Below, piece by piece: positions 53,470 through 58,940 of a DNA stretch of 64,000 nucleotides (position 1 is its first letter; each line of letters starts with the position of its first letter). This DNA comes from Dissulfurimicrobium hydrothermale (GTDB taxonomy: Bacteria > Desulfobacterota > Dissulfuribacteria > Dissulfuribacterales > Sh68). The stretch covers positions 776,306 to 840,305 of the forward strand of contig NZ_CP085041.1 in NCBI RefSeq assembly GCF_022026155.1, given 5' to 3'. The notes beneath the pieces are model-generated. The model made no database searches. It was not told the origin of the DNA and saw only the letters and a program-made list of their open reading frames with translations. The translations under genes were made by a program, and so were the position numbers.

Positions 53470-54426
53470 TCAATAATGCCTTATGATATCCCCTTTATGA
53501 AGGGCATCAATGACCACCTTCCTTATAAGGTCATATATGGCCTGAGGGTCTTTGCCTTGTGCAAGGGGGCCTGTTGCGGTGTCGCCTGGGCCGATCCGTC
53601 CGTCTGCGTTCTGGTCGGTCAGGACCAAAATGGGCTCATTTTCGGGCCCCTTGCCGTTTTCGTCGAAAACCATGACCTTGAGCGAGCGGTTGCCGTCCCT
53701 GCCCTCTTTGATTTTTATCAACATCCGCCCCATGGATGTCTTAAGGCCTGTCTCGAATGTACATACACCGTCCGGGCATACAGGAAATCCGCTTTTATCC
53801 GTCTCAATTATGGAGGCGAATGGGCGTATAACGCCATAGAGGTTACGGCGGCTGTTGAGGATTATGACCGTGTCGTTCGGTCTGACCAATGGGAAGATCT
53901 GGTCTATATCTTTGTCATTTAATGCAACACATCCTTCTGTCCAATCAGCCTCCGGTACGCCGTCAAACAATCTATAGATACCGCCGCCGTGAATACCGAT
54001 CCCGCAGCCAAGTCCGGTATCGCAGGGGACAGCCTCTGATTTTTTGATCGCCGTGTATATTTTTTTGTATTCCTCAGGGGAGATGACCCCTCCCATCAAT
54101 GCCCTTATAGCGTTGATAAGATTTGGATATGATATGCCCAGGAAACGATGGAAGCGGCTTTTTGGTTTTTTGTATGTGATGAAGTAGAGGCCTTCCGGCG
54201 TGGCGGCGTCGTTAACCTTGTATTTGTCGGAATCAGGGTCTATGCCAAGAGACACATGCACCTTTACCGCAGGTCTTTTGTCTTTCAGGACGGTCAACGT
54301 CTTCCGCGCCTTGTCTATTACTAGACAGGTTGAGGCAAACGCATATCTTGGCACAAAGATGTTTATGAGCGTGAAGATAAAAAAAAGGCGCATCGCTTGA
54401 CTTTTAAAAAATTTTTCTAATATCAT
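53470..54426 (-). CDS. L,D-transpeptidase (YkuD) with C-terminal EF-hand-like segment
   Basis: A 318-residue exported protein: signal peptide from the Met at 54393 ('MRLFFIFTLINIFVPRYAFA'), then a YkuD domain. 'IGIHGGGIYR' and 'DWTEGCVALNDKDIDQIFPL' hold the catalytic HxG and the Cys (TxGCVxL). The substrate loop between them is long. After about residue 215 a region ends with 'DQNADGRIGPGD', a Ca-binding EF-hand/dockerin-like loop. It probably forms 3-3 peptidoglycan cross-links or attaches lipoprotein. It is divergent from the OprI/Lpp-like lipoprotein gene, 33 bases away. ATG 54426 or 54393 may be the start. Confidence 0.82.
   Translation of the reverse strand: MILEKFFKSQAMRLFFIFTLINIFVPRYAFASTCLVIDKARKTLTVLKDKRPAVKVHVSLGIDPDSDKYKVNDAATPEGLYFITYKKPKSRFHRFLGISYPNLINAIRALMGGVISPEEYKKIYTAIKKSEAVPCDTGLGCGIGIHGGGIYRLFDGVPEADWTEGCVALNDKDIDQIFPLVRPNDTVIILNSRRNLYGVIRPFASIIETDKSGFPVCPDGVCTFETGLKTSMGRMLIKIKEGRDGNRSLKVMVFDENGKGPENEPILVLTDQNADGRIGPGDTATGPLAQGKDPQAIYDLIRKVVIDALHKGDIIRHY
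54397..54426 (+). promoter_or_regulatory. Candidate promoter of the Lpp-like lipoprotein gene
   Basis: TTGACT at 54397-54402 and TATCAT at 54421-54426 (five of six each) are 18 bases apart. Start of transcription would be near 54433, shortly before AAGGAGG. The box overlaps the first codons of the divergent L,D-transpeptidase gene if that gene starts at 54426. Confidence 0.45.
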
Positions 54427-54459
54427 ATAACTATTGAGATAGAAAAGGAGGAAACTGAA

Positions 54460-54813
54460 ATGCAGAAGAAGAATGCGATGAATCGGATGTTGTCAGGGAT
54501 GTTTGTCTTGGTTGCCCTGCCATACCTTGCCGGGCTTGGTGGTTGTGCGGCTTCCCTAAATAAGGAAGACAAGGCCCTTTTGGAGAGCTCAAAGCAGTCC
54601 GCCGAGGAAGCGAAGGCCGCCGCAGCCAGGGCTGAGGCGATAGATAAACAGCTCGAGGCGATGGGGGCTCGTCTTGAAAGCGCTGCATCCAGCGCCGAAG
54701 AGGCTGCGAAGAGGGCTGATGCGGCTGCCAACAAGGCAACCGATGCGGCGGAACGCGCAGAGGCGGTGGCAAAGAAGACCGAGCGCATCTTCGAGAAGTC
54801 CCTCAAGAAGTAG
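54460..54813 (+). CDS. Alanine-zipper lipoprotein, OprI/Lpp (Braun lipoprotein) type
   Basis: A 117-residue lipoprotein. The signal ends in the lipobox 'LGGC' at residue 29. The mature chain of about 89 residues is a continuous alanine-rich helix with heptads ('AEEAKAAAARAEAIDKQLEA', 'AANKATDAAERAEAVAKKTE') and ends 'RIFEKSLKK'. This layout and the terminal Lys match Pseudomonas OprI ('LEKASRK') and E. coli Lpp ('TKYRK'), whose C-terminal Lys is bound to diaminopimelate by L,D-transpeptidases. AAAGGAGG lies eight bases before the ATG. L,D-transpeptidase genes flank it on both sides, which supports a role in tying outer membrane to peptidoglycan. Confidence 0.78.
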   Translation: MQKKNAMNRMLSGMFVLVALPYLAGLGGCAASLNKEDKALLESSKQSAEEAKAAAARAEAIDKQLEAMGARLESAASSAEEAAKRADAAANKATDAAERAEAVAKKTERIFEKSLKK

Positions 54814-54824
54814 TCATTTGAGGG

Positions 54825-55757
54825 TTACTGTCCATTTTTTGGACTGGCGACAGCCATGGGTACACCACTTTTTTCTTTCAAGGCCTTATCGAGGGCCGCG
54901 AAGTCTATTTCAAGCGGACCCATGGCTGTTTCACACTGCAGAAGCCTTTTCATGGCCTCTTTTAACGGGTCTGCTATTTTGTTGTCAAAGTCATCGAAGA
55001 CCTGCACCCAACATTTGCCATTCCCCCAGCCTACTTTGATGGGTTCATAGGTGACCCTCACCATCGTTCCTTGCGGCACAATCGGGTAGAGGGCGGCTAT
55101 GTCTTCAGGATACATGCGGATACATCCATGACTTACACGCCTGCCCACCCCGAAAGGCTTATTTGTCCCGTGTATCCCGTATTCCAGACGGGAGAGGCGG
55201 AAGATATAGTCGCCAAGCGGGTTGTCAGGCCCAGGTGGGACCTCAGGCGGGAGGTTGGGTTCCATGGCCCTGATGGAGGCGGGCACGACCCATGTGGGGT
55301 TCGGGGTCTTGCTCTTTATTGTATAAACGCCGAGTTCTGTAAGGAATCCTTCCTGTCCTATGCCCACTGGGGCGGTAATAAAGTAATCGTGGCCGCCGTT
55401 CGAGAAGAAGTAGTAAAGGCGCATCTCAGCCAGGTTCACTACTATGCCTGAGCTTATCCTATCCTGCGGCAGGACGAATGCCCATGGGATCAGTACTAGC
55501 CTGTCTTTTGGCGGTATCCATGGGTCTATCCCCGGGTTTGCCGATGTAATCTGATTGTAACCCAGGTCGAACTCCCTCGCGATGTCGAGCAGCGTGTCTC
55601 CTTTGTTTATCTTGACCCATCTTGTCGTCCCATAGATGGTGCTGTCGGGCGTCAAGACAAACGACCGTAGGGCAAATGCGTTTTGTATGCTGGCCATCCA
55701 GCAGAAGATGGAGATAAAGAAGGTTGTGCTTGAAGTATAAAGTTTAGTACGTTTCAT
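54825..55757 (-). CDS. LysM-containing L,D-transpeptidase (ErfK/YbiS/YcfS family)
   Basis: A 310-residue exported protein: signal peptide (about 1-29), a LysM peptidoglycan-binding domain at about 45-92 ('VKINKGDTLLDIAREFDLGY'), and a YkuD catalytic domain ('GIVVNLAEMRLYYFFSNGGH'; 'YGIHGTNKPFGVGRRVSHGC', where the last Cys is the nucleophile). The domain order matches E. coli ErfK/YbiS/YcfS, which join Braun lipoprotein to peptidoglycan. A C-terminal extension of about 70 residues follows. It ends 11 bases from the convergent lipoprotein gene. It is two bases upstream of the DRTGG gene's end. Confidence 0.92.
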   Translation of the reverse strand: MKRTKLYTSSTTFFISIFCWMASIQNAFALRSFVLTPDSTIYGTTRWVKINKGDTLLDIAREFDLGYNQITSANPGIDPWIPPKDRLVLIPWAFVLPQDRISSGIVVNLAEMRLYYFFSNGGHDYFITAPVGIGQEGFLTELGVYTIKSKTPNPTWVVPASIRAMEPNLPPEVPPGPDNPLGDYIFRLSRLEYGIHGTNKPFGVGRRVSHGCIRMYPEDIAALYPIVPQGTMVRVTYEPIKVGWGNGKCWVQVFDDFDNKIADPLKEAMKRLLQCETAMGPLEIDFAALDKALKEKSGVPMAVASPKNGQ

Positions 55758-55758
55758 G

Positions 55759-56829
55759 TCATTTTATACCTAGCAGGGAATCCAGTCGCATGAAATCCAT
55801 GCGTTCTTTAAGAAGGCCGTCCAAGTGCGAAAGCTTTTTGGGTTGATGAAAATGGCTTTTTCCGAAGAAGTTTTCAATGACCTCTATTGCCCCCATGGTG
55901 TCCAGATTTGTAAGTATAACAGGCACCCCAGCCTCTTCGGCCTTTCCTATGATCATCGGACTTGGACGAAGTCCACCAGTAAGTATGAGGCATTTCGTGG
56001 AGGTTTCAAGCGCTGCAAGCTGTATATCCGGCCTGTCTCCACCGGTTATTACCGCCTTGTTCCGTTTTCTGCGGAAAAACCGAAGGGCGCTTTCAAAGCT
56101 CATCGCTCCTATCATTATATTCTCAACCAGTTCGTCTAGCCTTTTTTTTGCACAGAGTACATCACCTCCAAGTCCTTCAAGAAATTCTTCTACGCTTGCA
56201 GCCGTCAAAAGTTTCTCTTTAGGCAGCACACCGAGCACGGCTATACCTCTTTTTTCAAGATAGGGCCTTATGAGTCCATGGACAGTCTCGATCTTTGAGA
56301 CGTTGACCCGATTGATTACGGCGCCAACCATGGAATCTCCAAGGCGGATCTGCGCCGTTATCAGGTCATCCAGCACCTGCATCTCTGTTTCAAACGGCAC
56401 TACCACCAGGGACCTTGCACTGAGCGAGGGTCCTGTCTGTACCGGGGCCAGGTTTACGAACCATCCTTCCCTGAGGCTGGCCCCGCCTTCAAGTATAACT
56501 ATGTCTTTTCCGTCGGCTATAATATTAAAGGCGGCGTTTACGGCTGCAGGGAAGTCAATCGTCATACCCTTAAGGACATCTTCGATTACGCGGTTGTTCA
56601 ATATGGTAGGGGACATGGCCTCAATTGGGTCAGCAAGCTTGAAAGTTGTTTTTATAAAGGCGGCGTCTTCGTCTATGGCCTTTCCATCCACAATCTTGGG
56701 ATTGGTGCTGAGAGGCTTCATATAGCCGGTTTTCAGCCCCTTTTTTTGAAATCTGTTGATAAGTCCGGCGCATAAGGCGCTTTTACCGGAAAAGTTCTGG
56801 GTAGAGGTTACATATATGCTTTTTGTCAT
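55759..56829 (-). CDS. DTB-synthetase-like ATPase with DRTGG domain (Pta N-terminal-type protein)
   Basis: A 356-residue protein in two parts. Residues 1-200 are a BioD-like P-loop domain ('IYVTSTQNFSGKSALCAGLI' and 'DIVILEGGASLREG'); residues about 205-320 form a DRTGG domain ('IMIGAMSFESALRFFRRKRN', 'AVITGGDRPDIQLAALETST', 'CLILTGGLRPSP'). The same pair forms the N-terminus of large phosphotransacetylases, but the catalytic Pta domain is absent. The start is set by GGAGG before ATG 56829. It lies 17 bases after the ADP-forming acyl-CoA synthetase, so a regulatory role in acetate metabolism is plausible. Confidence 0.82.
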   Translation of the reverse strand: MTKSIYVTSTQNFSGKSALCAGLINRFQKKGLKTGYMKPLSTNPKIVDGKAIDEDAAFIKTTFKLADPIEAMSPTILNNRVIEDVLKGMTIDFPAAVNAAFNIIADGKDIVILEGGASLREGWFVNLAPVQTGPSLSARSLVVVPFETEMQVLDDLITAQIRLGDSMVGAVINRVNVSKIETVHGLIRPYLEKRGIAVLGVLPKEKLLTAASVEEFLEGLGGDVLCAKKRLDELVENIMIGAMSFESALRFFRRKRNKAVITGGDRPDIQLAALETSTKCLILTGGLRPSPMIIGKAEEAGVPVILTNLDTMGAIEVIENFFGKSHFHQPKKLSHLDGLLKERMDFMRLDSLLGIK

Positions 56830-56846
56830 GACATCCTCCAGCCTTG

Positions 56847-58940
56847 TCAGTTCTTCAATACGAACCTTACGTCTAGCCCCATCACGCCCCATCCTTCTTC
56901 GAAGACTACGAGCGGATTTATATCCATCTCGACTATCTCGGGGAACTCCGTCACGAGCCCCGAGACCTTGAGGAGTGTTTCGGCTATCGCGTCGATATCG
57001 AGACGTCTTGTCCCGCGGGCGCCGTAAAGGAGCCCTGCCGAACGTATCTCAGAGATCATCTCAAGGGCCTCTTCTTTTGAGAATGGGGCTATACGAAATG
57101 AGATGTCCTTTAGAATCTCAACATATATACCCCCGAGTCCGAACATCACAAGGGGTCCGAACTGCGGATCTCGGTTCATGCCGATTATGACCTCGGCATC
57201 TCCTTTTATCTGTTTCTGGACGAGGCATCCCCATATTTCGGCGTCAGGCATATAACGCTGGGCCCGGAGCGTGATAAGGTCAAATGCATCGCGCACCTCC
57301 CTGGCGTCTTTTATATCAAGACGCACGCCGCCAATATCTGTCTTATGGAGTATGTCGGGGGAGGCTATCTTCATGACCACCGGATAGCCTATCTCTTCAG
57401 CGGATTCTACAGCCTCCTGCGGATTTTTGCAGAGCCTGGATGTAGGTATTTGAAGTCCGCATGCTGAGACGATCTCCCTTCCCTCAGCCTCGCCCAGTTC
57501 GGCCCTGCCTTCATTTTTTGCCTTTTCTATAACAGCGCGTATCCTGTCGCGGTCAAGGGTTGCCTGTTTCGGGATGTGAATAGGTGTGTCTTTCCATCTC
57601 TTTTGGTCCCACATTACCTTCAAGACAGCTACGGCCCTTTCAGGCGTGATGAAGTTTGGGATATTGCCTTCCTCAAGGATCTTTTGGGCAGTTTTAAGGT
57701 TTTTGTCCCCGATGAAACAGGCTATGACGGTTTTTTTTGCGACCTTTGCCATCTCGACCACCACCCTTGCCGTTTCATCGGCCTGGGTCATAATCTGAGG
57801 GGTCAATATGACGATCAGTGCATCGACTCCAGGGTCTTTTGTAACTAGTTCGAGTGCTGTTCTGTAGCGTTCAGCCAAGGCATCCCCAAGGACGTCAACC
57901 GGGTTCAAGACGCTTGCCGCGGGCGGGAGTGCCATGGAGAGGGCGTCCATCACATCTCTGCTCAGGCGAGCGAGTCTTAGGCCTGCACGTTCGATGGCAT
58001 CCGCTGCCATTATTCCAGGACCGCCGGCATTGGTCACTACGGCTATCCGATCCCCTGAGGGTAGCGGCTGTATAACCAGGGAGGCGGAAAAGTCAAAGAG
58101 GTCTGTGATAGACTCGGCCCTGATGATGCCCGATTGCCTGAATGCCGCCTCATAGGCCTTTTCGCTCCCTGCAAGAGTCCCTGTGTGTGAGCTTACCGCA
58201 CGCGATCCAGCGCCAGTCGACCCCGATTTTATAGCGACAAATGGTTTTTTTTTCGTAAGGCGCCGGCTTAGCTCCATAAACCTTGCCCCGTCGGTGATGC
58301 CTTCGAGATATCCCATCACTATCTTGACATGGGGGTCATCTATCCATGCCTCCATAAAATCCAGTTCATTAAGGTGCGCCTTGTTCCCCAGGCTAACAAA
58401 CCTCGAAAATCCAAGACCTGCGGAAAGAGATATGTCTATTATTGACGTGCATAGGGCGCCCGACTGGGACATGAATGCCGCCTCTCCCTTAAGGGGCATG
58501 GATGCAGCGAAGGATGCGTTCATGGGCGTTATGGTGTCTATGACGCCGAGACAGTTTGGACCAAGGATCATCATATGGTGTTCTTTTGCGATATTTGCCA
58601 TTTCAATCTCCCGAAGGAGCCCTTCATGGCCTGTCTCTCTGAAGCCTGCCGATATTACGACCGCCGCGCCGACCCTGCATTCGCCGCAGGCCCTGAGGGC
58701 GTCGAGCACAAAATCTGCTGGTATGGCTATTATCGCAAGGTCTATCGGCTCTTTGACGGCCCTGATGTCGGGGTGGCTTTCGATGCCGAGGACTGACTCG
58801 GCTTTAGGGTTGATTGGATAGATGGGGCCTTTGAAACCGCTTGCTACGAGATTTTTAAGTATCTCATGGCCCAGTTTGCCTGGGTGAGCCGATGCGCCTA
58901 TAAGGGCGATGGCCTGTGGAGAAAACAGTTTCTCAAGCAT
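56847..58940 (-). CDS. Acetyl-CoA (acyl-CoA) synthetase, ADP-forming, fused alpha-beta
   Basis: A 697-residue fusion. An N-terminal CoA-binding domain (about 5-130, 'IALIGASAHPGKLGHEILKN') and the succinyl-CoA-ligase-like flavodoxin domains contain 'AVSSHTGTLAGSEKAYEAAF' with the phospho-accepting His. The C-terminal ATP-grasp domain (about 480-690) has 'GYPVVMKIASPDILHKTDIG' and 'VIIGMNRDPQFGPLVMFGLG'. It reversibly makes ATP from acetyl-CoA, ADP and phosphate, releasing acetate; in anaerobes it either conserves energy or activates acetate. The ATG at 58940 overlaps pyrF by eight bases. Acyl chain specificity cannot be read from sequence. Confidence 0.9.
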   Translation of the reverse strand: MLEKLFSPQAIALIGASAHPGKLGHEILKNLVASGFKGPIYPINPKAESVLGIESHPDIRAVKEPIDLAIIAIPADFVLDALRACGECRVGAAVVISAGFRETGHEGLLREIEMANIAKEHHMMILGPNCLGVIDTITPMNASFAASMPLKGEAAFMSQSGALCTSIIDISLSAGLGFSRFVSLGNKAHLNELDFMEAWIDDPHVKIVMGYLEGITDGARFMELSRRLTKKKPFVAIKSGSTGAGSRAVSSHTGTLAGSEKAYEAAFRQSGIIRAESITDLFDFSASLVIQPLPSGDRIAVVTNAGGPGIMAADAIERAGLRLARLSRDVMDALSMALPPAASVLNPVDVLGDALAERYRTALELVTKDPGVDALIVILTPQIMTQADETARVVVEMAKVAKKTVIACFIGDKNLKTAQKILEEGNIPNFITPERAVAVLKVMWDQKRWKDTPIHIPKQATLDRDRIRAVIEKAKNEGRAELGEAEGREIVSACGLQIPTSRLCKNPQEAVESAEEIGYPVVMKIASPDILHKTDIGGVRLDIKDAREVRDAFDLITLRAQRYMPDAEIWGCLVQKQIKGDAEVIIGMNRDPQFGPLVMFGLGGIYVEILKDISFRIAPFSKEEALEMISEIRSAGLLYGARGTRRLDIDAIAETLLKVSGLVTEFPEIVEMDINPLVVFEEGWGVMGLDVRFVLKN

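Follow-up and report, generated by a model that had tools for sequence, protein, structure and literature searches.

A putative attach-detach gene cassette for an OprI-like outer-membrane tether in Dissulfurimicrobium hydrothermale

We analysed a 64,000-nucleotide stretch (hereafter the window) of the Dissulfurimicrobium hydrothermale genome, a single contig of 2.03 Mb, and found a locus that is probably an attach-detach cassette for an OprI-like outer-membrane tether. A lipoprotein gene lies between two YkuD genes, named here ldtA (53470-54426, minus strand) and ldtB (54825-55757, minus strand), in the order ldtA <- lipoprotein -> <- ldtB with gaps of 33 bp and 11 bp. The three genes are where the original prediction had placed them, and its idea of a self-contained tether between outer membrane and peptidoglycan still stands as a prediction, on the terminal Lys, the Ala-zipper, the lipobox of outer-membrane type, an L,D-transpeptidase (Ldt) of the ErfK/YbiS/YcfS/YnhG type and the conservation of the trio.

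In the mechanism that we propose, the lipoprotein would be lipidated at Cys29 and carried to the outer membrane, and its 89-residue mature part would form a rod of about 13 nm, if fully helical, with the C-terminus towards the peptidoglycan. LdtB (SHGCIR) would join the side-chain amine of Lys117 to the meso-diaminopimelate of a stem peptide, and LdtA (TEGCVA) would hydrolyse the Lys117-diaminopimelate bond, so that the anchored fraction of the tether could be adjusted. Attachment by LdtB to Lys117 is very likely; release by LdtA, given attachment, is likely but is the less certain half, and the two together leave the whole picture probable. Gene content, motifs, conservation and linkage were read from sequence; lipidation, outer-membrane sorting and the chemistry of attachment and release are carried over from Escherichia coli and Pseudomonas aeruginosa.

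The lipoprotein and its putative attaching enzyme

The proposed covalent tether (54460-54813, plus strand) is an OprI/Lpp-like Ala-zipper lipoprotein of 117 amino acids, and the features first reported for it are all present: a Leu-Gly-Gly-Cys29 lipobox (54535-54546, plus strand), an Ala-rich coil and a C-terminal Lys-Lys. In an alignment of 22 relatives, the lipobox Cys is invariant, and so are Lys106, Glu108, Phe111 and the terminal Lys117 of the C-terminal attachment motif KTERIFEKSLKK (54775-54810, plus strand); the window protein ends in ...FEKSLKK, and one aligned member, from genome G014, has an extra Arg after the Lys. The protein is a heptad coil with 31% Ala, and its mature part has no Pro; certain heptad positions are enriched in Ala, and others in charged residues. 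Of the two Pfam families to which the original prediction had pointed, Alanine_zipper (PF11839) matched at 26.6 bits (cut-off 23.1), as the sole copy in the genome above the cut-off, and LPP (PF04728) gave no match at E <= 1. When the lipoprotein profile was run against PDB, only designed helical-repeat or coiled-coil proteins were matched, and these were dismissed as composition matches.

In keeping with the original prediction, the terminal Lys is conserved, as the last residue in 80 of 84 related lipoprotein open reading frames (ORFs). The four ORFs without it are that of G014 and three that belong to another sequence type and are second copies in their genomes, which are of families f17 and f60. 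Because the lipoprotein profile includes the C-terminus, lipobox ORFs near ldtB were also sought without the profile, and a lipoprotein that the profile had missed (L090) was found in this way at the expected place, with the end FEKSMRK. In some f17/f60 genomes (L140, L143, L144 and L145), a second, Cys-rich lipoprotein (CCQKYYD...) is encoded next to ldtB and the tether lipoprotein; it has a strongly basic C-terminus, in which Lys is not always the last residue.

In E. coli, lipoproteins with no Asp at position +2 are sorted to the outer membrane. The +2 residue is Ala in the window protein, and Asp was found there in 0 of the 84 related ORFs by a crude lipobox call; by the E. coli rule, the lipoprotein is thus predicted to be sorted to the outer membrane. 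LolA and DapF are both encoded in the host genome, which is consistent with lipoprotein export and with a cell wall containing meso-diaminopimelate.

The proposed attaching enzyme, LdtB, has 310 amino acids and is a LysM-YkuD protein of the LdtA/B/C/E type by its Pfam and NCBIfam matches and its AlphaFold 2 (AF2) model. Its YkuD domain (PF03734) scored 91.2 bits and that of LdtA 59.4 bits (cut-off 23.4), and its LysM peptidoglycan-binding domain (PF01476; 55521-55613, minus strand) scored 23.9 bits (cut-off 20.9), which upholds the domains first assigned to the two flanking genes. The catalytic motif SHGCIR (Ser209-Arg214, with Cys212; 55116-55133, minus strand) has the form [ST]xGChR in the relatives. 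Residues 15-307 align with NF047955 (LdtE, with related E. coli transpeptidases), the best-scoring NCBIfam family, and the AF2 model (pLDDT 89) is closest to the Klebsiella Ldt 4lzh (TM 0.74/0.83). We therefore regard LdtB as a putative attaching-type Ldt of the ErfK/YbiS/YcfS/YnhG type.

Besides ldtA and ldtB, the host genome has one other YkuD gene (L051:2053-3978). It is YcbB-like, has FSSGCIR as its motif and, as in E. coli, precedes a YcbK/MepK-like gene (families assigned by eye, not with a hidden Markov model). Since this third gene is YcbB-like, the host genome has no other obvious anchoring enzyme, and 3-3 cross-linking has a candidate enzyme of its own.

Linkage of the three genes across Desulfobacterota

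The trio, whose retention in related genomes bears directly on the original prediction, proved to be conserved far beyond close relatives: it is complete in about 33 genomes of the phylum, from at least 21 families and in at least five gene orders. Counted by numbered families, ldtA <- lipoprotein -> <- ldtB is found in 10, the tandem ldtB-lipoprotein-ldtA in 7 and ldtA-ldtB-lipoprotein in 3, and two further orders occur in single genomes. A strong lipoprotein match (E of about 1e-12 or better) was obtained in 52 of 394 phylum genomes, and of these 52 carriers 50 have ldtB in the genome, with a distance to the lipoprotein gene of less than 2 kb in 37. This is far more than chance would give: with about 1.3 LysM-YkuD copies per 3-Mb genome, adjacency would be expected in about 0.1 of 52. 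The related genomes in this comparison are not independent, but at least 21 families and several gene orders contribute to it. The common layouts of the pair are convergent (window type) and tandem ldtB-lipoprotein. Within the order, both lipoprotein and ldtB were found in 20 genomes, the lipoprotein only in 1 (G014), a truncated or weak ldtB only in 2 and neither in 22 (Fisher p 1.5e-9).

Genes that flank the trio were not kept beside it: thiC, Pta-like, pyrF and cca genes did not adjoin it in the loci searched, and the acetyl-CoA ligase gave one match only, which argues that the linkage is not general synteny. A chance neighbourhood was rejected, since the trio is conserved while the wider gene order is not.

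Three genomes have incomplete or broken arrangements. In G014 (about 90% complete), the lipoprotein (L031:3155-3502) ends in Lys-Lys-Arg and ldtB is not detectable; a DpaA-like gene is still present elsewhere (L056). In G001, one of the two genomes with only a truncated or weak ldtB, ldtA and ldtB are at contig ends, and the lipoprotein gene probably falls in the gap. In G018 (contig C2, 97757-134533), the cassette is broken: a DpaA-like gene and the lipoprotein gene are adjacent, and some 34 kb separate them from ldtB.

The original prediction had placed the locus in a lineage in which Lpp is not generally described. This is right for classical Lpp, since PF04728 matches were weak and confined to 4 of 296 phylum genomes and the phylum is essentially without it; it is too broad for Lpp at large, since a long Lpp of at least 99 residues is noted for Geobacter (PMC8824477). 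A search of open-access text for Braun lipoprotein gene clusters of Desulfobacterota or Geobacter returned no on-point literature.

The linkage data also bear on an explanation in which LdtB, being LdtE-like, would only make 3-3 cross-links, the lipoprotein would be a non-covalent periplasmic spacer and the linkage would be historical. It could account for LdtE being the top NCBIfam family of LdtB and for ldtE adjoining lpp in E. coli, and Ldts do not fall into one attaching and one cross-linking lineage (PMC10434034). Against it stand the near-invariant terminal Lys, the linkage in several gene orders, the joint presence and absence of lipoprotein and ldtB, and the existence of a further enzyme, the YcbB-like one, that could make the 3-3 links; we consider it highly improbable.

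Lengths of the lipoprotein also follow a pattern. When length is counted from a fixed motif near the N-terminus, it is 72, 79, 86 or 93 residues in 30 of 32 window-type members and 65, 72, 86, 93 or 100 in 11 of 14 tandem-type members, values that are all 2 mod 7; the window lipoprotein measures 79 by the same rule. A coiled-coil rod would be able to absorb length changes in steps of a whole heptad. Adding two or three heptads to the Lpp of E. coli widens the periplasm in proportion (PMC5736177), and the relatives found here supply a natural series of tether lengths that would be useful for studying how periplasm width is controlled.

LdtA and the candidate release reaction

LdtA (53470-54426, minus strand) is a YafK/DpaA-like YkuD protein of 318 amino acids, for which we propose the role of an amidase that releases the tether; if translation began at Met12 (54393) instead, the signal peptide would be tidier. 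DpaA hydrolyses the bond between Lpp and peptidoglycan (Winkle et al. 2021, PMC8263019), and the second residue behind the catalytic Cys is Arg in transpeptidases and, in most DpaA-like proteins, Ala or Asn (PMC8263019). The catalytic motif of LdtA is TEGCVA (Thr163-Ala168, with Cys166; 53923-53940, minus strand). Over all loci fetched, the motif reads TxGChA in 41 of 41 proteins of the LdtA type and [ST]xGChR in 85 of 85 of the LdtB type, counts that are not all independent, as a few named loci are on the same contigs as loci listed by genome. As LdtA has Ala and not the transpeptidase Arg, by this signature it would not be a second attaching transpeptidase. In a PDB profile search, E. coli DpaA (8ikr) was the best match (E 7.9e-9), and Bd1075 (1.9e-5) and the weak matches Csd6 and Pgp2 were all behind it.

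The original prediction had taken both flanking genes for transpeptidases. This holds for LdtB; LdtA, which lacks the Arg and groups with the hydrolases DpaA, Bd1075, Csd6 and Pgp2, was most likely misread as an attaching enzyme. A tether with two attaching YkuD enzymes, perhaps for different conditions, would be in line with the YkuD domain in both proteins, with the three attaching enzymes that the literature gives for E. coli and with a structural search of LdtA in which transpeptidases rank first. We find it quite unlikely, as the transpeptidase Arg is absent from every one of the 41 LdtA relatives, these relatives and DpaA have loop-1 residues in common, and DpaA itself has no detectable transpeptidase activity (PMC8263019).

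Thirty-six relatives of LdtA were aligned to DpaA from the E. coli MG1655 record, whose residue numbers are used here. The essential Lys83 of DpaA is kept in 35 of the 36 (Lys68 in the window protein), an aromatic residue is found at Tyr109 in all 36 (Phe in the window protein), and His135, Cys143 and Ala145 are likewise kept throughout. The Trp of the carboxypeptidase D-Ala pocket occurs in 0 of 36, the residue there being mostly Gly, or Met as in DpaA (residue roles in DpaA and in this pocket are from PMC10653827). The Trp matters for a second way of reading LdtA, in which LdtB attaches the tether and LdtA is an L,D-carboxypeptidase like Csd6, Pgp2 and Bd1075, whose trimming of D-Ala would leave fewer tetrapeptide donors for attachment. 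These three enzymes are among the next PDB matches of LdtA, carboxypeptidases too are without the Arg (PMC8263019), and short YafK-like genes are present in genomes without the lipoprotein. Given the missing Trp and a DpaA match that is clearly better than any of the three, a carboxypeptidase role is possible but rather unlikely, and release by a DpaA-like LdtA is preferred.

Several results weigh against an attach-detach cassette. The lipoprotein scored 28.2 bits against the NCBIfam family Lpp/OprI (NF040598), below the cut-off of 43, and LdtB 168 bits against the LdtE equivalog cut-off of 480, for which reason it was not filed as LdtE itself. LdtA reached 17.9 bits against the NCBIfam family DpaA (NF040599; cut-off 365), and Tyr131, which matters for activity in DpaA, is Gly in the window protein and variable in the relatives. 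A Foldseek search with the LdtA model (pLDDT 84) returned generic YkuD transpeptidases first (TM about 0.5); DpaA was not among the best 50 matches listed, and the search did not separate the DpaA and transpeptidase types. In addition, many lipoprotein-ldtB pairs have no adjacent YafK-like gene, and within the order there are genomes that lack the lipoprotein and yet have YafK-like genes, of a shorter form. In view of the Tyr131, NCBIfam and Foldseek results, LdtA is called DpaA-like and not DpaA, and the carboxypeptidase explanation was kept.

The C-terminal extension of LdtA carries an EF-hand/dockerin-like loop, DQNADGRIGPGD (residues 271-282; 53581-53616, minus strand). The Ca-binding-like loop first seen in this protein is therefore present. 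Among window-type cassettes it is conserved as DxNxDGxxxxxD in nearly every long-form LdtA, with a variant in G014 and no loop in G006; it is absent from tandem-type and short forms. Tether release by LdtA could be calcium-dependent through this predicted loop, with periplasmic Ca2+ as the cue and with rod length set for each lineage in whole heptads, a proposal that we regard as doubtful. Ca2+ also stabilises the outer membrane.

Known tethers and the surroundings of the locus

In P. aeruginosa, LdtPae2 anchors OprI, and the YafK-like LdtPae3 is tentatively the releasing enzyme (PMC10434034). The window resembles this system in its Lys-terminated Ala-zipper lipoprotein, in combining a YkuD protein from the LdtA/B/C/E lineage with another that has the Ala motif, and in a third Ldt for 3-3 links, the three roles being spread over LdtPae1-3 (PMC10434034). 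In the window, the three genes make up a single cassette; set against P. aeruginosa, the window lipoprotein is of greater length, and the YafK-like enzyme is extended at its C-terminus by a segment that holds a Ca-type loop. The likeness to E. coli lies in a Lys-terminated coiled-coil Lpp, in the attaching LdtA/B/C with Arg and in DpaA with Ala (PMC8263019, PMC10653827), and lpp and ldtE are convergent like the lipoprotein gene and ldtB, with a gap of 63 bp as compared to 11 bp (L148, MG1655 1757421-1758725). E. coli ldtE is usually said to encode a cross-linking enzyme, which makes its position beside lpp worth re-examining. Unlike in the window, dpaA is unlinked to lpp in E. coli, about 1.5 Mb away, and Lpp is a PF04728 protein of 78 residues.

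With Geobacter, the likeness is in long Lpp-like proteins within the same broad group; in the available part of PMC8824477, length alone is noted, and enzymes and gene clusters are not described. LdtA has in common with Csd6, Pgp2 and Bd1075 the hydrolytic YkuD branch, the loop-1 Lys and the lack of the transpeptidase Arg, and differs in the aromatic D-Ala pocket with Trp, which is theirs (PMC10653827).

In the cassette, attaching-type and DpaA-like genes stand beside a gene for an OprI-type lipoprotein, and they do so in several gene orders across the phylum. Many bacteria that have no PF04728 Lpp, among them Deltaproteobacteria, were found to have DpaA-like proteins, and it was suggested that these act on other substrates or as carboxypeptidases (Winkle et al. 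2021). The cassette names a candidate substrate for DpaA-like proteins of Lpp-less bacteria, an OprI-type Lys-terminated lipoprotein, and makes the question directly testable.

The 33-bp gap between the divergent starts of ldtA and the lipoprotein gene (54427-54459) carries the ribosome site of the latter, AGGAGGAAA, and a sigma70-like match, by consensus only, lies just upstream of it (54397-54426). Promoter and terminator scans gave few matches over the shuffled background and were not counted as evidence. The 11-bp gap between the convergent stop codons of the lipoprotein gene and ldtB was read from the sequence (54814-54824). Two antisense ORFs of 127 and 113 amino acids over the lipoprotein gene were dismissed as by-products of Ala-rich coding. 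A BioD/Pta-N-terminal-like gene (named by eye; 55759-56892) ends 1 base before the start of ldtB on the same strand; it was not found adjoining the cassette in the relatives searched, and in the host genome ldtB may be co-transcribed with it.

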